From contig CADCHI010000006.1 of NCBI GenBank assembly GCA_902801165.1, positions 1 through 64,000 of the forward strand: a DNA stretch of 64,000 nucleotides, given 5' to 3'. Origin of the DNA: an uncultured Eubacteriales bacterium. Its GTDB lineage: Bacteria > Bacillota > Clostridia > Christensenellales > Aristaeellaceae. Shown one piece after another: positions 1,979 to 29,142 of the stretch; within the stretch, counting starts at the first letter, position 1, and every line of letters starts with the position of its first letter. The notes under the pieces were generated by a model that worked only from the letters and a program-made list of their open reading frames with translations, searched no databases and was not told the DNA's origin. The translations under genes and the position numbers were made by a program.

Positions 1979-2011
1979 ACGGGCATTCTCTTTTCCCGGC
2001 ATCGATCGCTG

Positions 2012-2590
2012 TTATTTCAGCGCCTCCGCCAGCGCGCCTTCGGGCTCGACGCCGCTGCCGTCGCGGATCAGGCGGAACATCTCCCGGCGCTGCTTTTCGC
2101 TGTAGATGCCGGCATTCATGTGGTAGCGCTTGTTGTCCTTGGTGATGAAGGCCACCTCGTGCACGGGGAACAGCTTGTTCTTCTCCCCGCCCTGGCTGCG
2201 GTCGATGCGCTCGTAGCCCAGGTCCTCCACATAGCCGTACCTGGCGATGTTGTCCAGGCGGATGGTCTTGTCGACGAAGCGAATGTCCAGGTCTCCGGTG
2301 CGGAAGAGGAACGACGCCCGCTTCTCGCCCGCCTTCGGGCGAATGTTGGCGGGCCAGGCCATGCGCAGCCGCCCCTCGCCCACGGCCACCTGGCTGCGCA
2401 CGTACATCCAGGTATAGCAGAGCGCCAGGGCAAATATGACGTAGGAAAAGAAGGAAAAGCTGGCCATCATGTCCGGCTCCAGATGCCGGGTCTGCCGGTA
2501 AATCGTAAACACCACGTCGCTGAAGCACAGCAGCGTCAGCACATACAACACAATATAGCCCGCGCAGTGGGGTCGAAAGCGCTTCATCAT
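2012..2590 (-). CDS. Small membrane protein with a cytoplasmic C-terminal domain, unknown function
   Basis: Encodes 192 residues. I do not recognise the family. The N-terminal half has two hydrophobic helices (about residues 10-30 and 43-64) with a short loop between them, which predicts a two-pass inner-membrane protein. The rest is soluble and mixed-charge, with alternating strands that could form a PH-like or bPH-like fold; this is inference from pattern only. The start was chosen at 2590 because GGAGG lies seven bases upstream, and a TTGTTT-17-TATAAT promoter precedes it. It is transcribed toward leuS and shares the bidirectional terminator. The AraC-type regulator gene lies just upstream in the same direction, but the separate promoter argues for independent expression. 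Confidence 0.7.
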   Translation of the reverse strand: MMKRFRPHCAGYIVLYVLTLLCFSDVVFTIYRQTRHLEPDMMASFSFFSYVIFALALCYTWMYVRSQVAVGEGRLRMAWPANIRPKAGEKRASFLFRTGDLDIRFVDKTIRLDNIARYGYVEDLGYERIDRSQGGEKNKLFPVHEVAFITKDNKRYHMNAGIYSEKQRREMFRLIRDGSGVEPEGALAEALK

Positions 2591-2618
2591 CCATCAGCCT
2601 CCAAAGTTCATTCGCTTC

Positions 2619-2647
2619 ATTATATATCATTCCGGGGAAAAAAACAA
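2619..2647 (-). promoter_or_regulatory. Promoter for the 2012-2590 membrane protein
   Basis: On the minus strand, TTGTTT (2642-2647) and TATAAT (2619-2624) are separated by 17 bases and lie just upstream of the ribosome-binding site. Confidence 0.6.
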
Positions 2648-2658
2648 GAAGGCGCCGC

Positions 2659-3510
2659 TCACTTCAAGCCCTTGCGGTACTGGGTGGGCGAGCAGCCCAC
2701 GAACCGCCGGAAGGCGGAAGAGAAGTGCTCGATGGAGGAAAAGCCCAGGCGCTCGCCGATCTCGGTGACGGAGAGCTCCGTGTGGATCAGGTACTGAGAC
2801 GCCGCCGCCATCCGCGCCTCGGTCAGCTTCTGGGAGAAGCTCTTGCCGAAGTTGTTCTGCAGCAGCCGCTGGGTCTGGCGCACGCTCAGGTTGAGCAGGC
2901 CCGCCAGCTCCCCCAGCGTCAGCGTGCGATAGCGGTAGAAGAAGGCGTCCTCGATGACCGGCATCAGCCCCGCCCGGGTCAGCGCCGGCACGCGGCTCTC
3001 CGCCGCCTGGGCCGGGGCGACGTCCTGGCCGTACATCCGCGTCAGCGTCACGATGATCTGCCGCAGCAGCGCCTCGGACATCTCCCAGCTGCCGGGCTGG
3101 GGATGGCGGTTTTCCTCCACCAGCCGCACCAGCAGCGGGAAGATGCGCCCGCCGTCCTCCCCCATCCAGAAGGGGGTGTCCGCGAACAGGGCGAAGGGAC
3201 TGGACCCGCTCCGGGCGTCGTATTCGCAGTTCAGGTACAGGCAGTACTCCGTCACCGGGTTGGCGGGGTCCGAACGCTGGGCGTGCACGATGCCCGGGCC
3301 GGTGATGTACAGGGTGTCCGGCTCCACGCTGCGGCGAATGCCGTCGATGGTGACCAGGCCCCTGCCCCGCTCGGTGTAGTGGATCTCGTAGCTGGTGTTG
3401 GAATGGCGGTGCGCCGCGATGATCGGCTGCAGCTGCTCGATGCGCACGTGCACCGGCGCGATCAGCAGCGGTCCCAGCTCAAAGCTGTCCGAAAACTCAT
3501 ACGTCTCCAT
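2659..3510 (-). CDS. AraC-family transcriptional regulator
   Basis: A 283-residue DNA-binding regulator. The N-terminal part is a cupin-like sensing domain ([12 protein letters not shown] near residue 35, followed by strands). The C-terminal ~100 residues contain the two helix-turn-helix motifs of the AraC/XylS family, with [13 protein letters not shown] and the conserved second HTH plus [15 protein letters not shown] signature. The ATG at 3510 was chosen because a GGGGGAG ribosome-binding site sits immediately upstream. The frame stays open to 3678 only because the upstream heptamer array happens to be stop-free in this frame. The gene is divergent from the dehydrogenase/kinase/ABC-transporter genes, so it most likely senses the imported sugar or its product and controls that locus. 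The ligand cannot be told from sequence. Confidence 0.9.
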
Positions 3511-13256: not shown

Positions 13257-13429
13257 ATGTTATATTATACTGGTATAAAATATGCCTGTAAATGGGTTTA
13301 CCGGGCTGCACGGCGCTTCATCGAGGCGGAGCGGGTTCTGAAAAGGCTGAAAATCCGCGATTTCTCCCCCTCCTCTCCGCGGCGCGGCAGTTTGTTTCGC
13401 GACGCAAGATCAACGAAAGCAGTGACGAG

Positions 13430-14380
13430 ATGAAAGAGAAAGACAAGGCCGCGGCGGGCGCCATCGACAGCATGGCCCCCGAGGCGGAGGGCATGGCCGA
13501 CGCGAAGGTGCCTAAGAGGAAGCGCAGGGGGCTCAGGGTCCTCCTGGGCATCCTCCTGGCGCTGCTGCTCCTGGTTTTGGTGATCGGCGCGGTGGTATTC
13601 TTCTACGCCAGGTACACCAAGACCCACTATGAGATCACGTTCTACCAGGAGACCTCCACGAAGGTCAGCCAGAACATCCGCCTGGTCGTCATCGCGGACA
13701 TCCACAACCGGGAATACGGCGACGGGAACGCGACGCTGATTTCGGACATTCGCTCCCTGGACCCCGATCTCATACTGTTCGCGGGAGACATGGTGCTCTA
13801 CCATGACGACGATTACACGGCTGCGCTGCACCTGGTGGAGGAGTTGTCCGCGCTGGCGCCGTGCTACGGCGTCATGGGCAACCACGAAAACGAGCGGATC
13901 TACCTGGCAGGCGACACCCAGCTGCCCGAGCGCTTTGAGCAGGCCGGGCTGAAGCTGCTGCGCAACGCCGAGGAGAAGATCGCCATCGGCCCGGACACCC
14001 TCCAGCTGATCGGCGTGGAGGGAACCTCTGCCGGGTTTGAAAAGTACGGCGGCAGGAAGGCCATGGACGAGACCGAGATCGACCCCAAGTCCTACTGCAT
14101 CGTGATGGCGCACATCCCCATACTGTTCGACGGACAGCTGTCGGACTACGATTTCGACCTGGGAATCGCCGGGCATGTGCACGGCGGCATCGTGAACATT
14201 CCCCACTTCGGCGGACTGATCAGCATGGAGGAGGGCTTCTTCCCCACCTACTGCGCCGGAAGGTATACCCTGAGCCGACAGCAGTCCCTGCTCATCAGCC
14301 GGGGCCTGGCGGACTCCCGCCCCATCCCCCGCGTGAACAACCTGCCGGAGCTGATGGTGGTCGACATCAACTGGTGCTGA
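13430..14380 (+). CDS. Membrane-anchored metallophosphoesterase
   Basis: A 316-residue protein of the calcineurin-like phosphoesterase superfamily (YkuE/YaeI type). It has a charged cytoplasmic N terminus, one transmembrane helix (about residues 35-59), and an extracytoplasmic catalytic domain with the motifs in order: VIADIHN, LFAGDMV, MGNHEN, MAHIPI and GHVHGG. These bind a dinuclear metal centre and hydrolyse phosphoester bonds, often of lipid-linked or envelope substrates. The ATG at 13430 gives the natural basic N terminus; the frame runs further upstream without a ribosome-binding site. It is the first gene after the 13228-13256 promoter and precedes the EPS genes by about 100 bases, suggesting a role in lipid-carrier or polymer phosphate processing. 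Confidence 0.88.
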   Translation: MKEKDKAAAGAIDSMAPEAEGMADAKVPKRKRRGLRVLLGILLALLLLVLVIGAVVFFYARYTKTHYEITFYQETSTKVSQNIRLVVIADIHNREYGDGNATLISDIRSLDPDLILFAGDMVLYHDDDYTAALHLVEELSALAPCYGVMGNHENERIYLAGDTQLPERFEQAGLKLLRNAEEKIAIGPDTLQLIGVEGTSAGFEKYGGRKAMDETEIDPKSYCIVMAHIPILFDGQLSDYDFDLGIAGHVHGGIVNIPHFGGLISMEEGFFPTYCAGRYTLSRQQSLLISRGLADSRPIPRVNNLPELMVVDINWC

Positions 14381-14480: not shown

Positions 14481-15830
14481 ATGAATAGGGATAGGCAGAA
14501 GAGATGGCTGCAGCCCCAGGATATGGCAGCCTCGGGCGGTCCCGGGAAGGGCTGGGTCAGTCTGCGAAGGACCTTCGAGACCTTTGGCAAGCACAAGGTG
14601 CTGGCGCTGGTTCTGTTTTTGGCCGTATGCCTGGGGCTGAACGGCTATCATTATGTCAACAGCATGCGCAAGGCCAGCACGATCGTCTCCCTGGATTACG
14701 AGGAGGCAGCCAAGGGACTGACCCCCAGCAAGACGCGGTTCAACATCTACGAGATCGAGAGCGCAGAGGTCATGGAAAGGCTGATCGACTACGCCGGACT
14801 GCAGGGCGTCGTCAGCGCGGGCGCGCTGAACAAGTGCATCAGCGTCCGGGCGACGCACAACCGGAACGTCAGCGGCAATGTAAACTTCATCAGCACCTCC
14901 TATGTGATCGAGTTCACCAAGAGCAGCGCCATCCAGAAGCGTTCCGCCGAGACGATGCTGTCGCTCCTGTGCAAGGCCTACCGGGAATTCTTCGTGGAGC
15001 ACTACGGCATCAACCATTCCATACTGAGCTTTGACATCAACGACCTGAAGTTCAACGACGAATACCTGCTGGTCGTGGACCTGCTGGAGCTCAAGTGCGA
15101 GCAGCTGAAGAAGTACGTCCAGCTCTGCAAGAGGAGTAACAAGAACTACCGGGACCCCGACACCGGGATCACCTTCTCCGAGCTGGAGCAGCGGGTCAAC
15201 AATTTCTTCGACTATGACCTGGCGAGACTGCGCTCCTACATCATCGAAAACGGCATCGCGAACGACAAGACGAGCCTGGACGCCATGCTGGCCTACAAGA
15301 TCCAGATGAACAAGCTGGTGTACGACGAGCACATGGCGGCCTACGAGGAGGACAACAAGGGCATCCAGATGTACGACCCCTCCATGAGCGCCGTCGTCAT
15401 GATCCCCACGGAGGACGCGAGCCTGAAATACTACATGTCCCGTACGAAGACCGGCATGGACAACATGGCCCTCCATGCCGACGCCCAGCTTCTGGGGGCC
15501 ACGGAGTGCACGAAGGACATCGAGTACAACACCTACCTGATCGACAAGATGCAGGGCAACACGCCGCGCAGGGAACAGCGGGAAAAGGCCGACGCCATGA
15601 TCGGACAGATGGAGGCTTCCCTGGAAAACCTGGCTTCCGACATCCGGGCGGTGGACAATTCCTTCACCAGCTACAAGGCCAGGAACTACCTGAGCTTCCG
15701 GGACAGCCACATGCGCTTCCTGGACCGCATCGCCCCGGCGAACTCCATCGGCGTCGCCGTGGTCCTTCTGGCCGCGGCCTTCGCGATCGTCTTCCTGAGG
15801 AATCTGATCAAAAGAGATAGTGACGTATGA
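14481..15830 (+). CDS. Wzz-like polysaccharide co-polymerase / chain-length protein
   Basis: A 449-residue protein with the topology of polysaccharide co-polymerases: a cytoplasmic N terminus, a transmembrane helix at about 40-57, a long extracytoplasmic domain rich in helices (residues 60-415), and a second helix at about 421-441 followed by a short basic tail. Sequence similarity is too weak for a confident family name, but topology, length and position next to Wzy, Wzx and glycosyltransferases support the call. The start at 14481 has AAGGAG six bases upstream. Its stop overlaps the next gene by four bases (ATGA), so the two co-polymerase-like proteins are translationally coupled and may form a mixed ring. 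No tyrosine-kinase domain is attached or encoded nearby. Confidence 0.7.
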   Translation: MNRDRQKRWLQPQDMAASGGPGKGWVSLRRTFETFGKHKVLALVLFLAVCLGLNGYHYVNSMRKASTIVSLDYEEAAKGLTPSKTRFNIYEIESAEVMERLIDYAGLQGVVSAGALNKCISVRATHNRNVSGNVNFISTSYVIEFTKSSAIQKRSAETMLSLLCKAYREFFVEHYGINHSILSFDINDLKFNDEYLLVVDLLELKCEQLKKYVQLCKRSNKNYRDPDTGITFSELEQRVNNFFDYDLARLRSYIIENGIANDKTSLDAMLAYKIQMNKLVYDEHMAAYEEDNKGIQMYDPSMSAVVMIPTEDASLKYYMSRTKTGMDNMALHADAQLLGATECTKDIEYNTYLIDKMQGNTPRREQREKADAMIGQMEASLENLASDIRAVDNSFTSYKARNYLSFRDSHMRFLDRIAPANSIGVAVVLLAAAFAIVFLRNLIKRDSDV

Positions 15831-17650
15831 AGCAGTTCAGCATTCTTCGATACATCAAGCAGTTCAGCCTGCTGATCCTCCTGTTGGCCTTCGCGGGCTC
15901 GGTGGGGATCTATCGCTATGGCCAGTCCAAGCAGCGCTATATTGCTTCCACCACCATCCAATACACCAACACCGGAGCCAAGGACGGCTATACGCCGGAC
16001 GGCACCCCCCTGGATGTGGAGGAGATCTATTCCTCCACGGTGATTGACGCTGCCCTGAAGGACCTGGGCTACCAGGCCAACGTGGACTCCATACGCTCCA
16101 ACTGCTATGTCGAGGAGGTCATTCCGGAAGAACAGAAGAAGCTCAACGAGGTGCTGTTGGAAAAGGGCGAGCAGAGCACCTACACGGCAGACACCTACCG
16201 CGTGTTCTTTGTGGGCGGGAACGACACCAGCGCCAATTACGCGTGGAACGTCCTGGACGCGATCATCAAGAATTACTGCGAATTCTACACGGAAAAATAT
16301 GTCGAGGAACAGCTGCAGAACAACGCGGCCGCCGTGCTGTCCGAGGGGGACTACGATTTCATCGAGAGCGCCCAGGTGCTGGACGACGCGGTTTCCAAGA
16401 TGCTGGACTACCTGATGAGCCAGCGGACGGCCAGGCCGTATTTCCGCTCCATCGAGACGGGCTATACCTACAGCGACCTCTACAACATCTACGATCACCT
16501 CTACAGCTATGAGATCCCCAACCTGTACGCCACCATCCTCGGCAACGCGGAGAGCGGCGACATCGAGGTCCTGATGAGCCGCATGACAAAGGAATGCGAG
16601 GATCTCCAGCTGTCCATCACAAATCGGAGCCAGCAATCGGACCATCTGAAGTCCTTGATCGACAATTACAGCAATCGAAACAAGGAAATGATGGACTATC
16701 ATTACCACAATTCGGCGGACGCGGACAGCGGCAAAGGCAGCGGCAGCACCGAGTACATCCTGAAGGACGTGGAATACGACGCCGAAAACAACGACAAGGA
16801 AACCACCTATGACGGGCTGATCCAGGAATACGTGGACCTGAACATCAGCATCCGCCAGAGCGAGATCCAGAAGGCCCACAAGGAATACCTGCTCACGGTG
16901 TTTGAAGACGCCCTGCACACGGCGAATCGCCGGGTCTACAGCGCGGAGGAGATCCAGGGCAAGATCGACCACTGCTCCGACCTCGTGACCGAGTATTACC
17001 AGTACGTGGAGGAGACCGGGCGCGAGCTGAACCGCTACCTGAGCGCCGATTACCTGACCATGGTCAGCAGCATCAACGTGTCCGCTTCGGTGAATTCCAA
17101 GCTCTACCTGGTCATCGCGCTGGTGCTCTTCACCGTGGTCGGCATCGTGGGCGCCATCCTGCTGGGCAGGGTGCTGGACTTCATCGACTACTTCCTGTAC
17201 GTGGACAAGACCGTGGGCCTGCCGAACCGCGACAGGTGCGACGTGTACATCGAGGAGCGGTCCGACAAGCTCCTGGCGGAGAACTTCTCCTGCCTGGCCC
17301 TGAAGATGGATTCCCTGAGCGACATCAGCCGCGACTTCGGTCGCGCGACGGGCAACATGGTGCTGAAGGACTTCGCGCAGATCATCAAGAGCTTCGGCGA
17401 TCTCTACGGCTTTGTGGGACATAACGGCGGCGGCAACTTCATCGCCTTCTTCCCCAACTGCCCGGGCAACAAGGTCAACGTGATCATCGAGGCCATCGGC
17501 CGGCAGGTTGAGGAATACAACAAGCTCAATCCGGAACACGGGATACGCTACTCCTGCGGCAAGGCCGTCTCCGGCGACGACAGCGCCTTCGAGATTCGCA
17601 AGCTGCTCCGCCTCGCCATGAAGCGGATGAGCAGTCCCGAGGCGGAATGA
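15827..17650 (+). CDS. Wzz-like co-polymerase fused to a degenerate GGDEF domain
   Basis: A 607-residue protein. Residues 1-450 repeat the co-polymerase plan: a transmembrane helix at 13-29, a large extracytoplasmic helical domain, and a second helix at about 427-449. The cytoplasmic C terminus (about 460-600) is a diguanylate-cyclase-type domain: GLPNR at 464, a helix equivalent to the DxLTGLPNR/MDxFKxIND region, and GHNGGGNFIAFF around 531-542 where an active enzyme would read RxGGDEFxxLL. The GGDEF signature is replaced by GGGNF (534-538) and no RxxD inhibitory site precedes it, so it is probably a non-catalytic nucleotide sensor or scaffold. It overlaps the preceding gene by four bases. 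It could couple cytoplasmic signalling directly to polymer chain length. Confidence 0.8.
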   Translation: MKQFSILRYIKQFSLLILLLAFAGSVGIYRYGQSKQRYIASTTIQYTNTGAKDGYTPDGTPLDVEEIYSSTVIDAALKDLGYQANVDSIRSNCYVEEVIPEEQKKLNEVLLEKGEQSTYTADTYRVFFVGGNDTSANYAWNVLDAIIKNYCEFYTEKYVEEQLQNNAAAVLSEGDYDFIESAQVLDDAVSKMLDYLMSQRTARPYFRSIETGYTYSDLYNIYDHLYSYEIPNLYATILGNAESGDIEVLMSRMTKECEDLQLSITNRSQQSDHLKSLIDNYSNRNKEMMDYHYHNSADADSGKGSGSTEYILKDVEYDAENNDKETTYDGLIQEYVDLNISIRQSEIQKAHKEYLLTVFEDALHTANRRVYSAEEIQGKIDHCSDLVTEYYQYVEETGRELNRYLSADYLTMVSSINVSASVNSKLYLVIALVLFTVVGIVGAILLGRVLDFIDYFLYVDKTVGLPNRDRCDVYIEERSDKLLAENFSCLALKMDSLSDISRDFGRATGNMVLKDFAQIIKSFGDLYGFVGHNGGGNFIAFFPNCPGNKVNVIIEAIGRQVEEYNKLNPEHGIRYSCGKAVSGDDSAFEIRKLLRLAMKRMSSPEAE

Positions 17651-17714: not shown

Positions 17715-19082
17715 ATGGCATACAGACAACTGCTGGCCCATGATGCGGCAGGGGTGGAGCCGTCGGCACCGAAAAAGTCGGTGCCGGGCATCGTGGTCAT
17801 TCTCACCGTCGCGTGCACCGTCATCGCCGGCCTGGGAGACTGGAAGGTCCTCAACGACGCGCTCAAGGGGCTGCCCAAGGTCGTCGCCCTGGGGACCATC
17901 GCCTGCGCGTTCCTGAACTTCCTGATCAAGGCGGACTTCGCCAACTTCAAAAAGGCGGTCAGCTACTTCCCGATGCTCCTGCTGCTGATCGCCCTGTACA
18001 CCCTGGTGAGCATGTACATCTGGATCACGGAATTCACAAAGATGGCCCTGATCAGCCGGGGCGCGCAGAAGATCCTCTTCCAGACGATCACGATCATCTA
18101 CGCGGTGTGCATGTGCTACCTCTTCGAGACCCGGGCGGTCAACATACTGTTCTTTTGCATGTGCGTCACCAACGGCGCCATCATGGTGCTGGAAATGCCC
18201 AAGTACGGCATCGCGGAGAGCATTTCCTCCGTCGTCACCTGCATCGTCACCTTCGGCGAGGCGGAGGGTTACGTGCGAGCCCTGGAGATCCACGACATCA
18301 CCTTCCTGTTCGGGCAGTTTCTCATCTACTACATGGCGTTCGCGCCCAGGGAGACGAAGGGTGAAAAGCGGTTTTGCCGGCTGGCCTCGTTCCTGTGCCT
18401 CTTCTTCATGCTGGTGGGCCTGAAGCGAAGCACCCTGCCCGCCGTATTCATGTCGCTGCTCTACGTCTGGATCGTCCGGCGATCCAAAAAAACGAACGGG
18501 CTGATCCTGGCAACCGGGATCGTCTTCTTCATCTTCTTCTATATCTTTCTCTACCTGGTGCGGACGGGCATGCTGGTGGAGTTCCTGGAATCCTTCGGAA
18601 TCGACATGATGGGCCGGCACCTGCTGTGGAGCCTGCCCAACCCCTACTACGAGTTCTCGCCGTTCTGGAAGGGACTGGGCTTTGAGGGCGTCACCGAGCT
18701 GACCGGCATGTGGTACGATGCCGGGATACTCAATCGCCCCTACCCCCTGCACAACGATATCCTCAAGCTGTTCATCGAGCTGGGAGCCCCGGGCTTCACG
18801 CTGTGGTCGCTCCTCAATTACGTATTCTTTCCGATCTACTGGATGAAGCGCCACGATACACAGACCGCCCTGCTGTACATGGCCATATTGGCCTACATGT
18901 CCGTCACTTACCTGACGGACAACACCGCGCTCTATTTCTGGAGCTGCATCGGCCTGCGGCTGATCCCCATGAGCTACAGCTACCGGCTCCACAAGCAGGA
19001 AAAGCAGCGGCTTTGGAAGGGCGTGACCGCCATGGACGCCGCCAACGAGATCTGGAACATCGAGATGAAGGGAAAGATATGA
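17715..19082 (+). CDS. Wzy-like O-antigen/capsule polymerase
   Basis: A 455-residue integral membrane protein with about eleven to twelve hydrophobic segments. The large extracytoplasmic loop near residues 300-350 reads GLGFEG...LHNDILKLFIELG, the pattern of O-antigen ligase/polymerase family members. It should join lipid-linked repeat units into polymer on the outer face of the membrane. The start at 17715 follows GGGAGG. It lies between the co-polymerases that would set chain length and the CDP-glycerol transferase. Overall sequence conservation in this family is low, so the assignment rests on topology, the loop motif and context. Confidence 0.82.
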   Translation: MAYRQLLAHDAAGVEPSAPKKSVPGIVVILTVACTVIAGLGDWKVLNDALKGLPKVVALGTIACAFLNFLIKADFANFKKAVSYFPMLLLLIALYTLVSMYIWITEFTKMALISRGAQKILFQTITIIYAVCMCYLFETRAVNILFFCMCVTNGAIMVLEMPKYGIAESISSVVTCIVTFGEAEGYVRALEIHDITFLFGQFLIYYMAFAPRETKGEKRFCRLASFLCLFFMLVGLKRSTLPAVFMSLLYVWIVRRSKKTNGLILATGIVFFIFFYIFLYLVRTGMLVEFLESFGIDMMGRHLLWSLPNPYYEFSPFWKGLGFEGVTELTGMWYDAGILNRPYPLHNDILKLFIELGAPGFTLWSLLNYVFFPIYWMKRHDTQTALLYMAILAYMSVTYLTDNTALYFWSCIGLRLIPMSYSYRLHKQEKQRLWKGVTAMDAANEIWNIEMKGKI

Positions 19083-19083
19083 C

Positions 19084-20262
19084 ATGCTGAACAAGTTCCG
19101 CCGCCTGTTGACCTACCTGAAGAATGTCATTCTGCTGGCGGCGCTCTGGCCGGCAGCCGCCCTGCTGCGGCGAACCAACAGGGGCTATCGACACCTCTGG
19201 CTGGTGTCGGAGCGCGGCATCGACGCCCGGGACAACGGCTATTGGTTCTATCGCTACCTGCGAAAGCAGCGCCCCGAGGTCAACGCCTGCTATGTCATCG
19301 ACGCGGACAGCCCGGACTACGCCAAGGTCGCCCAGCTGGGCCCCACGGTGAAGAAGGGCTCGATTCGGCACTACCTGATGTACCTGGCGGCGGACCGCCT
19401 CGTCAGCAGCCACGTGCAGCCCGCGGCCCCGGACCTGATGATCTACTATCACCTGCGCCGGGTCGGCATTCGTCCCCGGGGCAAGCAGGCGTTTTTGCAG
19501 CACGGGATCATCAAGGACGACATGCAGTGGATGCGCTATCCCCGCCTCAAAGTGGACTTCTTCGCCAGCGGCGGCAAGATGGAATACGACTACCTGGCCT
19601 CCGAATTCGGCTTCCCGGAGGGGGTCGTGCGCTATACGGGCCTGTGCCGCTTTGACAACCTGATGCGGGGAAAGCGTCAAACCAATCAGATCCTGGTGAT
19701 GCCCACCTGGCGCGGCTCCCAGTATCCCCAGGGGGAGAAGTTCGTCGAGACCGCCTTCTACCGGCACTTCCAGTCGCTTCTGGAGAGCCCCGAGCTCCTC
19801 AGGCTGCTGGAGGCGAACGACCTGAAGCTCATCTTCTATCCCCACATCGAGCTGCAGAAGGAGCTGGGCCGCTTTCACTCCCCCAGCGAGCGGATCGTGC
19901 TGGCGGACTGGCGCGACTACGACGTGCAGACGCTGCTCATGGAGTGCTGCGTGCTGATCACCGACTATTCCAGCGTGTTCTTCGACGTGGGCTACATGGA
20001 AAAGCCCGTAATCTACTACCAGTTCGACAAGGAGGAATTCCGCAAGTTCCACTACCAGGAGGGCTATTTCTCCTATGAGCAGCACGGCTTCGGCCCCGTC
20101 GTCGAGACGGAAGACGCCCTGCTCGAGGCCCTGCGCCGCTGCGCCGGCAACGGCTTCCACATGGAGAAGGAATACCTGGATCGGCTGGAGGCCTTCTTCC
20201 CGATGCGGGATGAGAACAACTGCGAGCGAACCTATCAGATTCTTTCTAAGCTGGGAGATTAA
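19084..20262 (+). CDS. CDP-glycerol glycerophosphotransferase family protein
   Basis: A 392-residue cytoplasmic/peripheral-membrane transferase of the TagB/TagF family, which moves glycerol-phosphate (or related polyol-phosphate) from a CDP donor to a lipid-linked or glycan acceptor. The diagnostic C-terminal domain is clear: QHGIIKDDMQW near residue 139, MPTWRGSQ near 206, and LITDYSSVFFDVGYMEKPVIYY near 291-312. The N-terminal helix (about 11-28) is amphipathic or hydrophobic, as in TagB-like enzymes. The start is two bases after the polymerase stop. No tagD-like cytidylyltransferase is present in the window, so the CDP-glycerol supply must be encoded elsewhere. Its presence predicts phosphoglycerol decoration of the exported polymer. 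Confidence 0.9.
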   Translation: MLNKFRRLLTYLKNVILLAALWPAAALLRRTNRGYRHLWLVSERGIDARDNGYWFYRYLRKQRPEVNACYVIDADSPDYAKVAQLGPTVKKGSIRHYLMYLAADRLVSSHVQPAAPDLMIYYHLRRVGIRPRGKQAFLQHGIIKDDMQWMRYPRLKVDFFASGGKMEYDYLASEFGFPEGVVRYTGLCRFDNLMRGKRQTNQILVMPTWRGSQYPQGEKFVETAFYRHFQSLLESPELLRLLEANDLKLIFYPHIELQKELGRFHSPSERIVLADWRDYDVQTLLMECCVLITDYSSVFFDVGYMEKPVIYYQFDKEEFRKFHYQEGYFSYEQHGFGPVVETEDALLEALRRCAGNGFHMEKEYLDRLEAFFPMRDENNCERTYQILSKLGD

Positions 20263-20265
20263 GCC

Positions 20266-21360
20266 ATGAGAACGGCGCTGTATGATGAAAAGTCGGATCG
20301 CGTGCTCTCGCGGGCGCACCCGTTCCACGACTGTGCCTTCCTGTCCCGGGAATCCATCTACCGCTTCCCGCCCACGCTGGACGTCTCGATCATCGTGCCC
20401 TGCTACAACGCGGAGCGCTTCCTCCCCCACTGCATCGAAAGCCTCGCCGCGCAGCAGACCGGCTGCCGCTACGAGGTGATCCTGGTCGACGACGGTTCCA
20501 GGGACGGCACCGGGGCGCTGCTGGAGGCCGCCGCCGAGGCGAACCCGGCGTTCCGCTGCTTCCATCAGGCCAACCAGGGGGCGGCCGCCGCGCGCAACGA
20601 GGGCCTGCGGAACGCCCGGGGCGAATACCTGCTCTTCGTGGACGCGGACGACGTGGTGTCACCGAACTACGTGCAGGCGCTGGTGGACTGCGTGAAGGCC
20701 GACGGCGCGGAGCTGGGCGTCTGCGCGTACTACTCCTTCGCCGGGGACGACCGGCGCTACAAGACCGTCCAGTGGGGGCCGACGATCGAGGCCCGGGACC
20801 TGAACGGAACGCCCTGGGGCAAGCTGTTCCACCGGAAGCTGTTCGAGCATCTGCTCTGGCCCTCGGGCTATTGGTACGAGGACACCGTGCTGGCCTTCCT
20901 GGTCTATCCCCGGGTCCGGAAAATCGCGGGCACCAACCTGTGCGCCTACGGCTACCGCAGCAGCCTGCAGAACGCCACCCACACGGGGCGAAACGCCCCC
21001 AAGGCGCTGGACAGCCTGTACATCACGGAGCTCGTCCTCCGCGCCATGGAAGCGGCGGGCCTTGCCGCGTGGCTGGACGGCGCGGAGGGACAGGAGCGGC
21101 TGATCGACCAGTTTTACCTCAACCAGTGCCGGGTCCAGAAGCTGCCCAAGGAATGCACGGGAGAGGTCTTCCGCCTGCAGAGCGCCTATGCGCGGCAGCT
21201 GCCGGTTTCCTCGGGAAGGCCGCGCTTCGATTCGCCCCTCTACGCGGCGGCGCTGCGAAACGGCAGTGCCGCGCTGGGAGACCTGGCCGTCCGGCTCGAA
21301 AAGGCCAACAAGGCGCTGCGGCTGCTGAAAAGCCGCCTCCCAGGACAGGCGCGGCGGTAA
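20266..21360 (+). CDS. Glycosyltransferase family 2
   Basis: A 364-residue GT-A fold glycosyltransferase that adds a sugar to the growing lipid-linked repeat. After an unusual ~38-residue N-terminal leader it shows SIIVPCYNAERFL, EVILVDDGSRDGT (nucleotide-binding aspartates), NQGAAAARNEGL and the DxD-like VDADDVVSP. The start has GGGAG upstream, four bases after the previous gene's stop. Donor and acceptor sugars cannot be inferred. Confidence 0.9.
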   Translation: MRTALYDEKSDRVLSRAHPFHDCAFLSRESIYRFPPTLDVSIIVPCYNAERFLPHCIESLAAQQTGCRYEVILVDDGSRDGTGALLEAAAEANPAFRCFHQANQGAAAARNEGLRNARGEYLLFVDADDVVSPNYVQALVDCVKADGAELGVCAYYSFAGDDRRYKTVQWGPTIEARDLNGTPWGKLFHRKLFEHLLWPSGYWYEDTVLAFLVYPRVRKIAGTNLCAYGYRSSLQNATHTGRNAPKALDSLYITELVLRAMEAAGLAAWLDGAEGQERLIDQFYLNQCRVQKLPKECTGEVFRLQSAYARQLPVSSGRPRFDSPLYAAALRNGSAALGDLAVRLEKANKALRLLKSRLPGQARR

Positions 21361-21411
21361 ACGGCGGCATCGTGAATCCCCAGGGCCGCATCACAGGAAG
21401 GAGCAGAACAG

Positions 21412-22536
21412 ATGATCCGTGTGCTTCATTCGGTCAGCAACATGGCGCGGGCAGGCATCGAGACCATGCTGATGAACTATTACCGGGAAGTGGACCGAAG
21501 CCAGATCCAGTTTGACTTTCTGGCAAACAAGCCCGTCCCGGGAGAGTACGACGACGAGATCCGCCGCATGGGCGGGCGGGTATTCGTCAGCCCCGGCCTC
21601 AACCCGCTGCACTATCCGCAATACAAGCGGTTTGTCGGGGAACTGCTGCGCGAAAACCCCGACATCAGGATCGTCCATGCCCACAACGAGGCCATGGGCT
21701 ATTACGCGCTCCAGAGCGCCAAGGGCGCCGGCATCCCCGTCCGCATCGCCCACGCGCACAACACGCAGATCATCCGCGACTACAAGTATCCGCTGAAGCT
21801 GGTCTGCAAGCAGCTGCTGCCCGGAGCGGCGACGGAATACTGGAGCTGCGGCAGGGACGCCGGCATCTACTACTTCGGCGAAAAGCGCTGGAGGGAATCC
21901 GGCTTCATCCTGCACAACGCCATCGACCTGGAGCGCTTTCGCTACCAGCCGGAGGTTCGCCGCCGCCTGAGGGCGTCCCACGGCCTGGAGGAGGCCTTTG
22001 TGCTGGGGCACGTCGGGCGCTTCAACTTCCAGAAGAACCACAGCCGACTGCTGGACATCTTCGCCGCCGTGGCCAAGGCCGCCCCGGAGGCGAGGCTGGC
22101 GCTGATCGGCGTCGGCGAGCTCGAGCAGGAGACAAAGGAAAAGGCCCGGAGCCTGGGCCTGGAGGACAAGGTCCTCTTCCTGGGCCAGATGGCCAACGTC
22201 AACGAGTGGTACCAGGCCATGGACTGCTTCGTGCTGCCCTCGCGCTTCGAAGGCCTGCCCGTGGTGGGCGTCGAGGCCCAGGCTGCCGGGCTGCCCTGCT
22301 TCTTTTCCCAGCAGGTGACCGACGAGATCCTGCTGACCCCGGAGGCCTGCCGGGTTTCCCTGGAGGCGGACGACGCCCAGTGGGCGCGGAAGATCCTCGC
22401 CTGCAGGGGGCAGGATCGGGACAGGACCCAAGGGGCGGAGCTGGTCCGGCAGGCCGGCTTTGACATCCATGTCGAGGGAAGAAAGCTGCAGGAGATCTAC
22501 CTGAAAATGGCCAAGTCCGGGAACGGGCCCCGATAA
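21412..22536 (+). CDS. Glycosyltransferase family 4 (GT-B), capsule type
   Basis: A 374-residue GT-B glycosyltransferase. The N-terminal acceptor domain has HSVSNMARAGIETMLMNYYR, typical of capsular EpsF-like enzymes. The C-terminal donor domain has GHVGRFNFQKNHSRLLDIFA and the E-x7-E motif region SRFEGLPVVGVEAQAAG. The ribosome-binding site AAGGAG lies about seven bases before ATG. It follows the GT2 gene by 51 bases in the same operon and likely adds one sugar of the repeat unit from a nucleotide-sugar donor. Confidence 0.92.
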   Translation: MIRVLHSVSNMARAGIETMLMNYYREVDRSQIQFDFLANKPVPGEYDDEIRRMGGRVFVSPGLNPLHYPQYKRFVGELLRENPDIRIVHAHNEAMGYYALQSAKGAGIPVRIAHAHNTQIIRDYKYPLKLVCKQLLPGAATEYWSCGRDAGIYYFGEKRWRESGFILHNAIDLERFRYQPEVRRRLRASHGLEEAFVLGHVGRFNFQKNHSRLLDIFAAVAKAAPEARLALIGVGELEQETKEKARSLGLEDKVLFLGQMANVNEWYQAMDCFVLPSRFEGLPVVGVEAQAAGLPCFFSQQVTDEILLTPEACRVSLEADDAQWARKILACRGQDRDRTQGAELVRQAGFDIHVEGRKLQEIYLKMAKSGNGPR

Positions 22537-22585
22537 TGCATCGGACGCCGTGACAATGGCCTGACGAGAGAGGAGAATCAGCGGT

Positions 22586-23767
22586 ATGGCTGTAGGAAGC
22601 GGAAACAGGAAAAGCGGGAAGAGGCCGATGCGAATCGCGATGATCGGCCATAAATTGATTCCATCCAGGAACGGCGGCGTGGAAGTGGTGGTCAGCAACC
22701 TGGCGCCGCGCCTCGTCACCCTCGGGGACGTGGTCACCTGCTACAACCGGACCAGCGAGGATTCCAAGAAGGACGGGCTGCCCCGGGAGTATCGGGGTGT
22801 GAAGCTGATATGGACGCCCACCATCAAGCGCCGCGGTCTGGCGGCCATGTCCTCCTCGATCATCGCCTCGATCATGGCCGCCTTCGGCCCCTACGACCTG
22901 ATCCACTATCACACGGAGGGCCCATGCGTGCTGTGCTGGCTGCCCCGGCTGTTTGGAAAAAAGATCGTGGTGACGGTGCACGGACTGGACCACATGCGCC
23001 AGAAATGGGGGCGCTTCGCCTCGGCCTACATCATGCAGGGAGAAAAGTCGGCGGTTCGCCACGCCCACAGGATCATCGTGCTGAGCAAGGGCGTGCAGGA
23101 CTACTTCATGGAGCGTTACCACCGCGAGACCGTGTTGATCCCCAACGGCATCGATCCGGCGGAGCCCCGTCCCGCCGAGGAGATCGCCCGGCAGTTCAAC
23201 CTCAAGAGACGGGAATACATACTGTTCCTGGGCCGCCTGGTGCCGGAAAAGGGCATCCACTACCTGATCGAAGCCTACAAGTCCCTGAAGACGGACAAAA
23301 AGCTGGTAATCGTGGGCGGCACCTCGGATACCGACGACTACGTGCGGCAGCTGTACCAGATGGCGGACAACGACCCCTCCATCATCTTCACCGGCTTCCA
23401 GCAGGGAAGGCCCGCGGAGGAGCTGTACAGCAACGCCTACCTCTACGTGCTTCCCAGCGACCTGGAGGGCATGCCGCTGACGCTTCTGGAGGCCATGAAC
23501 TACGGCTGCTGCTGCGTGACCTCCGACATCGGGGAATGCGTGGACGTGATGGGCGACAGCGGTTTTTCCTTCCCCAAGGGAAATGTGCAGGCGCTGCGGG
23601 AGACGCTGCAGGATCTGTGCGATCACCCGGAAAAGGTCGACGCCCACCGGGGCAAGGCCAAGGCCGTGGTCTCCGCCAAGTACACCTGGCGGGACATCTC
23701 CGCCCAGACCAACGAACTGTACAGGACGCTTCTTGAAGGCGAGGGAAAAAAAAGAAATTCAGCGTGA
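22586..23767 (+). CDS. Glycosyltransferase family 4, rhamnosyltransferase-like
   Basis: A 393-residue GT-B glycosyltransferase. IAMIGHKLIPSRNGGVEVVVSNLA near residues 17-40 is the hallmark of capsule rhamnosyl- or mannosyltransferases of the Cps2F type, followed by VTVHGLDHMRQKWG, IPNGID, and the donor site FLGRLVPEKGIHYLIEA plus SDLEGMPLTLLEAM. The start is uncertain between 22586 and Met15 (22628); the first has AGGAG ten bases upstream. The C terminus ends in a run of eight A residues, and its TGA overlaps the GTG of the next glycosyltransferase (GTGA). A -1 slip on the A run would fuse it to that gene; see findings. Confidence 0.9.
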   Translation: MAVGSGNRKSGKRPMRIAMIGHKLIPSRNGGVEVVVSNLAPRLVTLGDVVTCYNRTSEDSKKDGLPREYRGVKLIWTPTIKRRGLAAMSSSIIASIMAAFGPYDLIHYHTEGPCVLCWLPRLFGKKIVVTVHGLDHMRQKWGRFASAYIMQGEKSAVRHAHRIIVLSKGVQDYFMERYHRETVLIPNGIDPAEPRPAEEIARQFNLKRREYILFLGRLVPEKGIHYLIEAYKSLKTDKKLVIVGGTSDTDDYVRQLYQMADNDPSIIFTGFQQGRPAEELYSNAYLYVLPSDLEGMPLTLLEAMNYGCCCVTSDIGECVDVMGDSGFSFPKGNVQALRETLQDLCDHPEKVDAHRGKAKAVVSAKYTWRDISAQTNELYRTLLEGEGKKRNSA

Positions 23768-24872: not shown

Positions 24873-26450
24873 ATGAACGAAGGAAAAAGGACAGAGGTCA
24901 AGCTGGAGCGCGGCAAGAACGCGGCCCGCAATGTCCTTTTTGGCGGCATCTACAGGATCTATGCCATGCTGACCCCCTTTGTGATGCGGACGGTGATCCT
25001 GTACCAGCTGGGCGTTGATTTTCTGGGCCTGGACAGCCTGTTTACCTCCATACTGCAGGTGTTGAACCTGGCGGAGCTGGGCGTGGGCAGCGCCATGGTG
25101 TTCAGCATGTACAAGCCCATCGTGGACGACGACCGGGAAAGCATCTGCGCCCTGCTGAACCTGTACAGGAAGATCTACTACGGCATCGGCGCGGTCATCC
25201 TCGTCGCCGGACTCGCGATCACGCCGCTGCTCCCCACCCTGGTGAAGGGAACCATTCCCGAGGGGATGAACCTGTACACCCTGTATTACCTCAACCTGGG
25301 CAGCACGGTCCTGTCCTACTGGGTGTTCGCCTACAAGGGCTGCCTCTTCGACGCCCATCAAAGGCTGGATGTCGCCCACAAGATCCACCTGCTGGTCGAC
25401 ACGATGAAGTATATCCTCGCCATCCTGCTGGTGTGCGTCTACCACAACTACTACTATTACCTCATCACCCGGCTGGTCTTTGACCTGGTCTACAACGCGA
25501 TCCGTTTTTTGTACGCCGGAAAGCACTATCCCGACTACCAGCCCAGGGGTACCCTGGACCCGGCCCGCAAGAAGATGATCGTCTCGAGGGTCATGGACCT
25601 GTTTACCGCCCGGCTGGGCGGCGTCGTGATGAACGCCTCGGACGCCCTGGTCATCTCCAGCTTCCTGGGCCTCCACGAGCTGGCCATATACCAGAACTAC
25701 TACTTCATCGTCTCCTCCCTGCGGGCCTGCCTGGAGGTGATCCTGTCCGCCTCCCTCGCCGGCATCGGCAACAGCCTGCTGACCGAGACCAAGGACAAGA
25801 ACTATTGGGACTTCCGCCGGCTGACCTTCATCTTCTGCTGGATCACGGGCCTGTCGTGCTGCATGCTGATGGCGCTGTACCAGCCCTTCATGCGCCTCTG
25901 GACCGGCGACCAGCTGCTGATGCCCATGAGCGTGGTCATCAGCCTGGTGCTGTACCTCTACGTGGTGGAGGTCAACCGCATCACCAACATCTACAAGGAC
26001 GCGGCTGGCATCTGGCATGAGGACCGCTTCCGCCCGCTGACGGCGGCCATCGTGAACGTGTGCCTGAACATCCTCACCATCCGCTGGATCGGCGTGTTCG
26101 GCGTCATCTTCTCCACGGTGATCGCGATTTCCGTCGTGGAGCTGCCGTGGCTGATCCACAACCTGTTCAAGCTGATCTTCCCGCGGGACTACATCGCCTC
26201 CTACGTGCGCCAGCTGCTGTTCTACCTGCTGACCGTGGCGGTCGTCTGCGCCGGAACCTACGCCGTCTGCACCGTTCCGCGGCTGAGCCTGATCCCCACG
26301 CTGGTCGTCCGCTTCCTGATTTCCCTGATCCTGCCGAACCTGCTGTTCCTGCTCGTGTATCGGCGCACGGATGAATTCAAGGGCTCCCTGGAAATGGCGG
26401 ATCGCCTGACCCACGGCAAACTGAAGGTGTTGAGCCGGCTCAAAGGCTGA
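24873..26450 (+). CDS. Wzx-type polysaccharide flippase
   Basis: A 525-residue polytopic membrane protein with about twelve to fourteen hydrophobic helices, a basic cytoplasmic N terminus (KLERGKNAARNVLFGGIYRI) and the polysaccharide biosynthesis protein/MATE-like pattern (TVILYQLGVDFLGLDSLFTSILQVLNLAELGVG). It should flip the completed lipid-linked repeat unit to the outer leaflet for Wzy. ATG 24873 was chosen over the in-frame TTG 24855 because AGGAGG lies four bases upstream. It sits downstream of four glycosyltransferase genes and before the fifth, a normal place in Wzx/Wzy clusters. Confidence 0.9.
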   Translation: MNEGKRTEVKLERGKNAARNVLFGGIYRIYAMLTPFVMRTVILYQLGVDFLGLDSLFTSILQVLNLAELGVGSAMVFSMYKPIVDDDRESICALLNLYRKIYYGIGAVILVAGLAITPLLPTLVKGTIPEGMNLYTLYYLNLGSTVLSYWVFAYKGCLFDAHQRLDVAHKIHLLVDTMKYILAILLVCVYHNYYYYLITRLVFDLVYNAIRFLYAGKHYPDYQPRGTLDPARKKMIVSRVMDLFTARLGGVVMNASDALVISSFLGLHELAIYQNYYFIVSSLRACLEVILSASLAGIGNSLLTETKDKNYWDFRRLTFIFCWITGLSCCMLMALYQPFMRLWTGDQLLMPMSVVISLVLYLYVVEVNRITNIYKDAAGIWHEDRFRPLTAAIVNVCLNILTIRWIGVFGVIFSTVIAISVVELPWLIHNLFKLIFPRDYIASYVRQLLFYLLTVAVVCAGTYAVCTVPRLSLIPTLVVRFLISLILPNLLFLLVYRRTDEFKGSLEMADRLTHGKLKVLSRLKG

Positions 26451-27648: not shown

Positions 27649-29142
27649 ATGTACAAGAGAAAAACCAGCGGTTGGTCCCAGCACCTGGATTTCATGGCGC
27701 TGGATATTCTCTGCCTGGAGATCGCATGGCTCGGCTCCGCCCTGTTGCGCTCCTCCTGGCAGGAGCTGTGCTACAACACCACCTTCTGGGTGCTGTGTGT
27801 CGGCATGGCCTTCATCGATCTGCTGACCATGGTGCTGATGGACGCGTACCACAGCGTCATCCGCCGCGATTCCTACAAGGAAGCGCGCGGGGTCTTCAAC
27901 CAGACGCTGTACCTGACAGCCGGCCTCGTCGTGTTCGTGCTGCTGCTCAGGAACGACAGCATCAACACCGTCCAGGTACTGATGCCCACGCTGCCCATCT
28001 ATTTCCTGCTCTGCCTCAATATGCGCGTGCTGTGGAAGGAACACCTGCGCAAGCACCTGCATTTGAAGAACCGGACCGGCATGCTGGTCGTGGCCGCGCA
28101 GAGCCGCCTGCGGGATGTGGTCACGGCGCTGGTCAACCACAACTACAACAGCTACCGCTTTGTGGGCGCCGCTCTGCTGGAAGATGAGGGCGATTTCGCG
28201 GAGGCGGAAAGGGAACTGGCCCACATCAAGCACGGCGACCAGGAAATCGAGGCGCTGAAGGTGGTGGCCAACCGCAGCACCCTCATCTCCTACCTGATCA
28301 ACAGCTGGGTGGACGAGGTGTACGTGGACATCGCCGCCGGCGACCCCATGCCGGTGGAACTGATCAACGAAATCATGGGCATGGGCATCACCGTCCACGT
28401 GGCCCTGAACAGCATGGACCAGCTGGAGGCCCGACACAAGAATGTGGAATGGGTCTGCGGTCAGGTCACCATCACCACCAGCCTTGGCTACGTCACAGGC
28501 CGCGATCTGCTGCTGAAGCGGATCATGGATATCGCCGGCGGACTGGTCGGCTGCGCGATCACCGGGGTCCTGACCCTTATCCTCGCGCCGTTCATCTACT
28601 CGGCGTCCCCCGGCCCCATCTTCTTCAAGCAGATGCGCATCGGTGAAAACGGCAGGCGCTTCTGGATCTACAAATTCCGCAGCATGTACATGGACGCGGA
28701 GAAACGCAAGCAGGAGGTGGCCGCCGCCGAGGGCCAGCAGGACCATCTCATGTTCAAGATGGAGCATGACCCGCGCATCATCGGCCAGGTCCAGCGCCCC
28801 GACGGCAGCTGGAAGAAGGGCATCGGCGGCTGGATCAGGGACCTGTCCCTGGACGAGTTCCCACAGTTCTTCAACGTGCTCAAGGGCGATATGTCCCTGG
28901 TGGGCACCCGCCCGCCCACGGTGGACGAGTGGGAGCGCTATGAGCCCTACCACCGCGGCAGGATGTCCACGAAGCCCGGAATCACGGGCCTGTGGCAGAT
29001 CAGCGGCCGCAGCAAGATCCGCGATTTCAACCAGGTGGTTCAGCTGGACCGCGAATACATCGAGAACTGGTCCCTGCTGCTGGACTGCAAGATCCTGCTG
29101 CGCACGGTGTGGGTGGTGATCACGCGCAGCGGCGCCATGTAA
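27649..29142 (+). CDS. Polyprenyl-phosphate glycosyl-1-phosphate transferase (WbaP/WcaJ type)
   Basis: A 497-residue initiating enzyme that transfers sugar-1-phosphate from a UDP-sugar to undecaprenyl phosphate. The N-terminal third has four transmembrane helices, the middle is a CoA-binding-like Rossmann domain (residues ~130-270), and the C-terminal catalytic domain has a membrane re-entrant helix, KRIMDIAGGLVG, the basic YKFRSMYMDAE segment, the Asp-Glu pair in DLSLDEFPQ near residue 400, GTRPPTVDEWERY and KPGITGLWQISGRS. It uses ATG 27649 with GGAGAGG upstream. Placement at the end of the cluster behind its own promoter and before a terminator means initiation of synthesis can be tuned apart from the other steps. 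Confidence 0.95.
   Translation: MYKRKTSGWSQHLDFMALDILCLEIAWLGSALLRSSWQELCYNTTFWVLCVGMAFIDLLTMVLMDAYHSVIRRDSYKEARGVFNQTLYLTAGLVVFVLLLRNDSINTVQVLMPTLPIYFLLCLNMRVLWKEHLRKHLHLKNRTGMLVVAAQSRLRDVVTALVNHNYNSYRFVGAALLEDEGDFAEAERELAHIKHGDQEIEALKVVANRSTLISYLINSWVDEVYVDIAAGDPMPVELINEIMGMGITVHVALNSMDQLEARHKNVEWVCGQVTITTSLGYVTGRDLLLKRIMDIAGGLVGCAITGVLTLILAPFIYSASPGPIFFKQMRIGENGRRFWIYKFRSMYMDAEKRKQEVAAAEGQQDHLMFKMEHDPRIIGQVQRPDGSWKKGIGGWIRDLSLDEFPQFFNVLKGDMSLVGTRPPTVDEWERYEPYHRGRMSTKPGITGLWQISGRSKIRDFNQVVQLDREYIENWSLLLDCKILLRTVWVVITRSGAM

Follow-up and report, generated by a model that had tools for sequence, protein, structure and literature searches.

The locus considered here raises the question of what a domain of the GGDEF family, the family of diguanylate cyclases, is doing at the end of a protein that appears to belong to the machinery of polysaccharide assembly. 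It lies in a stretch of 64,000 nucleotides (the window; positions 1 to 64,000 of contig CADCHI010000006.1, assembly GCA_902801165.1, completeness 88.6%) from an uncultured Eubacteriales bacterium of the Aristaeellaceae, and consists of two overlapping genes, the second encoding the tailed protein and the first a tail-less paralog, PCP1. Hydropathy analysis placed two membrane segments in the tailed protein, with best windows at residues 4-22 and 428-446, separated by about 400 residues and followed by the GGDEF domain; the large middle domain is presumably outside the membrane and the tail cytoplasmic. The Pfam model PF00990 matched residues 458-601 (51.2 bits against a cut-off of 23.8, E = 1.6e-13), and TIGR00254 scored 30.7 bits, below its cut-off of 37.4. 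All 52 members of the family alignment (A2, the window protein with 51 complete homologs) matched PF00990 at E ≤ 1, and the family profile matched 49 distinct Protein Data Bank (PDB) sequences at the tail, most of them named as diguanylate cyclases or GGDEF proteins (best E 1.5e-13).

A preliminary description of the locus had proposed a two-helix membrane protein with a C-terminal GGDEF-type domain, overlapping a second co-polymerase without such a domain, and these points are borne out by the hydropathy, by the Pfam match, and by the pairing with PCP1 (22% identity, E 1.3e-6), within whose stop codon the tailed gene begins (ATGA). The overlap likely reflects translational coupling of the two genes. 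The same description had read GLPNR as a degenerate motif, which was mistaken: it is an ordinary part of the domain (LTGLPNR, which we take to be a normal GGDEF-domain element), its NR is conserved across the tailed family, and only HNGGGNF stands in place of RxGGDEF.

The tail and its residues

Sixty-three tails were aligned to a cyclase-like protein with the canonical motif RYGGDEF, encoded in the window's genome; they comprised the 52 of A2 and 11 of the 19 full-length loci, other than the window's, from a search of the class, and their counts are not independent, as some may come from shared bins. Residue roles, and the spacing of the inhibitory site (I-site; RxxD, preceding the GGDEF motif by 9 to 6 residues), were presumed to be as in PleD. 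The catalytic Glu was found in none of the 63 tails, nor was the RxxD I-site, of which the Arg alone occurred in one tail and the Asp in none. The tails instead carry the signature [YH]-N-G-x-G-x-F, in which the residue before the first Gly (the x of RxGGDEF) was Asn in 63/63; the exceptions elsewhere in the signature are an initial Asn (one case), Asp replacing the first Gly (one case) and the missing second fixed Gly of five tails, all from clade C. Among 112 sequence pairs, the 25 of lowest dS (synonymous divergence) gave ratios of nonsynonymous to synonymous divergence (dN/dS) of 0.09-0.36 for the tail. The absence of the catalytic Glu and of RxxD, the conserved motif and the low dN/dS together imply that the tail has been selected for a role other than making c-di-GMP (cyclic di-GMP) or binding it at an I-site. 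As judged from these residues, it is a conserved, catalytically dead pseudo-GGDEF domain, neither a cyclase nor an I-site receptor of the PelD/YdaK type. Were the tail a functionless, decaying remnant of a former diguanylate cyclase, this would accord with the higher dN/dS of the tail than of the outer domain, seen in 23 of these 25 pairs, but purifying selection, and the conservation of a new motif over divergent clades, make such decay very improbable.

Other residues of the former active site bear on the possibility that the tail is a direct ligand sensor, binding c-di-GMP, guanosine triphosphate (GTP) or another nucleotide (e.g., a nucleotide sugar) in a pocket remodelled from the active site and not at the I-site, with the bound state altering the co-polymerase complex. 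The pocket is constrained: the Asp of the GD element was present in 62/63 tails and Arg stood at the GH position in 60/63, besides the invariant Asn at x. Clade B also retained the guanine-binding Asn (32/32; clade C, 7/9) and was the only clade in which the metal-binding Asp survived (29/32). Against this, the clade A tails, the window's included, have Ser for the guanine-binding Asn (22/22) and Lys or Arg for the metal Asp (22/22), the window protein is the sole tail with Asn for the GD Asp, and RxxD is missing. The sensor is the strongest rival to the docking mechanism set out below, and is also favoured by nine of the 11 EAL tails (next section), which lack catalytic residues but keep other active-site residues; overall it is unlikely. 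Where the preliminary description had offered 'receptor or scaffold', a receptor acting through a known site is not supported, given the lack of RxxD and, in clade A, of the guanine Asn and metal Asp, and the scaffold fits better.

Distribution, EAL tails and links to c-di-GMP

The survey of related genomes that the preliminary description had proposed was carried out, and 51 further complete homologs were found. Among 100 genomes (the window's own and 99 relatives), full-length homologs occurred in four relatives, at 29-68% identity. A scan of contigs recovered 56 loci, mostly from rumen and gut Clostridia bins, of which five (L053, L065, L082, L084 and L085) did not enter A2, being truncated or wrongly started. 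In 391 Clostridia genomes, 54 had a match at E ≤ 1e-20: 20 were full-length with a GGDEF domain (the window's own included), five matched by the GGDEF domain only and 29 by the outer domain alone, the last group consisting of 11 EAL-tailed proteins, 17 tail-less proteins and one cut by the contig (G223). Four genomes matched in a phylum sample of 398, and the window's was the only GGDEF-tailed one. The full-length form was found in none of the 27 other species of the window's genus (E ≤ 1e-5), and the G+C content of the gene pair (positions 14,481-17,650) was 0.58 versus 0.65 in positions 30,000-64,000 of the window, which together hint at horizontal transfer as a possible origin of the pair.

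Some variants were also encountered. The 880-residue GGDEF-tailed protein of L120 (1501-4140, +) has about 275 extra, composition-biased residues after the GGDEF domain, and L168 (1312-2070, +) encodes a stand-alone membrane protein of about 250 residues whose C-terminal part is a related GGDEF domain with RNGGNEF, possibly similar to the one from which the tail derives. The cluster of L039, typical of clade A, was found in a record titled as a Bacteroidales bin, where a binning error is possible.

The EAL-tailed proteins, from 11 genomes, all matched the Pfam EAL model (best E 5.1e-60). All seven catalytic residues that could be placed were kept in the tail of L143, and L144 showed a single change, while in the other nine both the second DD Asp and the EGVE Glu were lost. 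In an unrooted tree built from 42 outer domains, proteins with a GGDEF tail formed one clade (support 99/95) and those with an EAL tail another (99/99), with tail-less proteins on both sides. The simplest reading of this tree is that the two kinds of tail were gained separately, in two events. The placement of an EAL domain in the position of the GGDEF domain, on the same co-polymerase scaffold, is new here.

Riboswitches provided a further connection. Of 53 genomes searched, 13 had a riboswitch of type c-di-GMP-I or -II no more than 15 kb from the co-polymerase gene, tailed or tail-less, with 0.52 expected by chance; the P value of 1.8e-14 is indicative only, as the radius was picked after the positions had been seen, the calculation assumed uniform placement, and genomes that are related do not count as independent. 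The filters of this search were the stricter ones, at which weak matches are lost. All 13 riboswitches were on the strand of the gene and 11 were upstream of it, and among the 18 genomes with exactly one riboswitch it was near the co-polymerase locus in 11. Nearby riboswitches were found at 7/11 EAL-tailed, 4/24 GGDEF-tailed and 2/18 other loci; that of L143 (734-825, +), of type c-di-GMP-I, heads the EAL-tailed cluster.

Genes of c-di-GMP metabolism also accompany these loci. In L172 and L173 a riboswitch stands before an EAL gene, the first of a run of genes on one strand that leads to the GGDEF-tailed gene, and in L174 one is flanked by a GGDEF gene and an EAL gene beyond the cluster; the GGDEF proteins adjoining the riboswitch in L172 and L174 carry RMGGDEF. 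In the GGDEF-tailed locus L171 a c-di-GMP-II riboswitch precedes a gene (1987-3270, +) in which an HD-GYP-type domain, with HDIGK and HHERYDGSGYP intact, is fused to a Bac_transf initiating sugar transferase, followed in turn by genes for an unassigned 379-residue protein, a phosphoesterase, the paralog and the GGDEF-tailed protein. In clade B an EAL protein of about 455 residues was present in all 24 loci with enough downstream DNA; the EAL Glu, Asn, DD and EGxE patterns were found in 24/24, and the other Glu, Lys and Gln patterns were missed in 1, 1 and 4 of the 24. EAL tails, riboswitches and c-di-GMP genes within the clusters show a tie to c-di-GMP in parts of the wider family.

Three observations stand beside these. 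In the L171 fusion the enzyme that starts the pathway bears a c-di-GMP-type domain. That the clade B EAL proteins might have the same pseudo-GGDEF domain as their N-terminal half was considered and not supported (profile-profile probability 2.1%); two other EAL proteins of such clusters gave weak Pfam GGDEF matches (E 1.7e-5 and 1.7e-4). An RT-5 RNA (RF03026, 75.9 bits) lies by the edge of a relative's locus (L032:319-424, -).

These links also bear on whether the tail is a passive structural piece, its GGDEF-like dimerisation merely aiding subunit assembly, and the c-di-GMP context of the relatives a matter of transcriptional control alone. The loss of catalytic and I-site residues is in keeping with such a role, as are the tail-less forms of 17 genomes and the riboswitches that already control transcription in some relatives, tail-less ones included. 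It accounts poorly for the gain of an EAL domain at the same position of the same scaffold, and for the L143 tail with its placeable catalytic residues complete, and is rather improbable.

Co-polymerase identity and the surrounding gene cluster

That the window protein is a polysaccharide co-polymerase is likely, though not proven, because members of its family match Wzz models, its outer-domain profile matches that of ordinary Wzz proteins, and its neighbours are polysaccharide genes. The description 'Wzz-like' given earlier rests on the family and not on the window protein itself, in which the Pfam Wzz model found no match even at E ≤ 10. In A2 only 5/52 members matched PF02706 at E ≤ 1 (best 0.032). 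In A4, an alignment of 42 chosen homologs covering a wider range of relatives, 18/42 matched PF02706 at E ≤ 0.01 (best 2.3e-6) and 5/42 matched the CpsC-type model TIGR01006 (best 3.3e-6). A profile of the outer domain matched one built from 14 of the 16 ordinary Wzz loci (L095 and L104 left out) at 94.3% probability, over the first ~105 residues only; five other profile-profile comparisons gave ≤2.3%. When the PDB was searched with the mixed A4 profile, the tail region matched GGDEF proteins, and no solved Wzz was found for the outer domain among the best 60 of 82 matches. Among these 60 the outer domain matched only the coiled coil of PI3K p85, which was taken as coiled-coil noise.

PCP1 matched no Pfam or NCBIfam model above cut-off. 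It has a counterpart in 56/57 loci (the window counted), the remaining one being cut by a contig end, and the metallophosphoesterase upstream of it is present in 54/57, contig ends cutting the other three. The usual order is phosphoesterase, paralog, tailed protein; L054 has the phosphoesterase downstream, and is also an exception to the presence of a Wzy-type gene after the pair in most sufficiently long loci. A calcineurin-like phosphoesterase likewise accompanies the pair in EAL-tailed loci. The query for the initiating enzyme of the window's cluster was L063:5540-6217, which matches Pfam Bac_transf (E 3.1e-64). The polysaccharide context given to the locus in the preliminary description is supported, with a polymerase, transferases and, by inspection, a probable flippase encoded alongside (Table 1).

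Table 1. Positions in the window of the co-polymerase pair, parts of the tailed gene, and neighbouring genes
Feature	Position	Strand	Basis
Membrane-anchored calcineurin-like metallophosphoesterase	13424..14380	+	Pfam Metallophos, E 2.8e-15; one N-terminal hydrophobic segment
PCP1, tail-less co-polymerase paralog, 449 aa	14481..15830	+	22% identity to tailed protein; two hydrophobic segments
ATGA overlap of both co-polymerase genes	15827..15830	+	Sequence
Co-polymerase with C-terminal pseudo-GGDEF domain, 607 aa	15827..17650	+	Open reading frame, ATG start, Pfam, family alignment
Second membrane segment, residues 428-446, followed by the tail	17108..17164	+	Hydropathy
GGDEF-family domain, residues 458-601	17198..17629	+	PF00990, E 1.6e-13; PDB sequence matches
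GHNGGGNF at the place of catalytic RxGG(D/E)EF	17417..17440	+	Sequence; family residue table
Wzy-type polymerase/ligase	17715..19082	+	Pfam Wzy_C, E 1.2e-7, 32.1 versus cut-off 31.7 bits
CDP-glycerol glycerophosphotransferase family (TagF-type)	19084..20262	+	Pfam, E 6.4e-40
Three glycosyltransferases, one GT2-type and two GT4-type	20266..23767	+	Pfam
Multi-pass membrane protein, probable Wzx-type flippase	24873..26450	+	Inspection only; homologs in clade A clusters; no Pfam match
Homolog of initiating phosphoglycosyltransferase	28516..29133	+	tblastn with L063:5540-6217

A bacterial tyrosine kinase (BY-kinase), the regulatory partner of other co-polymerases, was sought with a profile built from eight kinases that adjoin ordinary Wzz genes. 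It was found in 14/16 ordinary Wzz loci (8 of the 14 being the builders of the profile), and in none of the 57 family loci or the 25 loci of the class search, within the locus DNA examined, which included many short contigs. In the window's genome TIGR01007 gave no match above its cut-off, the best reaching 51 of 108 bits.

Possible action of the tail and relation to known systems

The mechanism preferred here, and given about an even chance, is that the pseudo-GGDEF tail docks a partner and so ties polymer assembly to the c-di-GMP state of the cell. In this view two co-polymerases, one of them tailed, work in a polysaccharide cluster of the Wzx/Wzy type; to judge from family and neighbours, the two helices and outer domain of the tailed protein would combine with the paralog into a membrane complex that assists the polymerase in determining chain length. 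That the ratio of subunits might tune such a complex, as the preliminary description put forward, is conjectural. The cytoplasmic tail, placed where the tyrosine kinase of PCP-2a proteins lies, would serve as a docking and switching module that pairs with a cytoplasmic partner such as a diguanylate cyclase, an EAL protein or a glycosyltransferase, and this docking would couple assembly to c-di-GMP. More broadly, Clostridia may hold a further class of Wzy-pathway co-polymerases without BY-kinase, in which a tail of a c-di-GMP family (pseudo-GGDEF or EAL) switches assembly and, in some members, the messenger also sets transcription through a riboswitch; this wider proposal is tentative, with a somewhat less than even prospect of being correct.

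Several results weigh against the docking mechanism. The view of the tail as a replacement for a BY-kinase is weakened, as the tail cannot be a simple kinase substitute when the tail-less pairs are without a BY-kinase too. The clade A tails lack the guanine-binding Asn, the loci of this clade gave no EAL match and the window's cluster contains no EAL gene, and no clade A riboswitch lay near the locus in three genomes (G000, G044, G068) or in four sources scanned. The window's genome gave no c-di-GMP-I or -II riboswitch and no PilZ match, and the window itself no c-di-GMP riboswitch at gathering score or among matches up to E 5. Riboswitches were not clearly commoner by GGDEF-tailed (4/24) than by tail-less loci (2/18), so that the association with riboswitches characterises the wider family rather than the GGDEF tail. 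The Wzz control, in which c-di-GMP-I alone was sought, was also weak, with no such riboswitch on the Wzz contig among 12 genomes, only two of which had any.

The genome of the window does contain nine GGDEF matches (the tailed gene and eight more, one with the canonical RYGGDEF) and three EAL matches, from which it follows that the species probably makes c-di-GMP. A tie between c-di-GMP and the locus in this species and its clade would follow from kinship. The cyclic-dinucleotide link suggested in the preliminary description is supported only by way of relatives, which have EAL domains on this scaffold, c-di-GMP riboswitches and, in some clusters, genes of the EAL, GGDEF and HD-GYP types; the family-level evidence reaches beyond the original finding, and that from the clade itself is thinner.

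To our knowledge, post-transcriptional control by c-di-GMP is far less clear for Wzx/Wzy-dependent polysaccharides than for the synthase-dependent cellulose, alginate and Pel. The wiring of the relatives' clusters to c-di-GMP suggests a little-known way of controlling the assembly of surface sugar chains: a signalling domain sits on the co-polymerase itself, in two apparently separately gained forms, in clusters that often have c-di-GMP riboswitches or enzymes. If the tail is the switch, a second messenger would act on polymer assembly directly and in a way open to test, as an alternative to the tyrosine phosphorylation of Wzc/CpsD, in carriers that are mostly uncultured rumen and gut Clostridia. 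The preliminary description knew of no described example of such a fusion, and none of a Wzz-type protein with GGDEF or EAL was found among the titles and abstract openings listed, from a literature in which subscription journals are thinly covered; this is not proof of absence in print.

Degenerate-GGDEF proteins are known from polysaccharide systems, among them PssE of a Listeria exopolysaccharide (EPS) system. Ordinary Wzz proteins (PF02706; L091-L106) share with the present family a remote homology over the ~105 residues noted above, and differ in being mostly 225-290 residues long, without a tail, and usually beside a BY-kinase gene. Wzy-pathway co-polymerases with intrinsic or separate tyrosine kinases are covered in a 2025 review (PMC12220298), where the word GGDEF is absent; the PCP-2a and PCP-2b types described there (Wzc; CpsC with CpsD) are alike in being two-helix, Wzy-dependent co-polymerases with a regulatory part at or beside the cytoplasmic end, but that part is a tyrosine kinase, whereas here it is a pseudo-GGDEF or EAL domain, with no BY-kinase in the loci examined. 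YdaK, an I-site-bearing receptor with a degenerate GGDEF domain from an EPS system (PMC9800504), and PelD and BcsE, whose degenerate GGDEF domains bind c-di-GMP (PMC8461298, a 2021 review), also place such a domain in a polysaccharide machine, but they are described as binding c-di-GMP through the RxxD of the I-site, which the present tails lack, and here the domain is fused to the co-polymerase. The nearest precedent is Alg44, according to the same 2021 review (PMC8461298) an alginate co-polymerase with a PilZ domain for which direct c-di-GMP binding has been reported: there too the co-polymerase itself bears a c-di-GMP-type domain, but in a synthase pathway and by way of PilZ, in contrast to the Wzy-type cluster and the GGDEF and EAL tails of this family.

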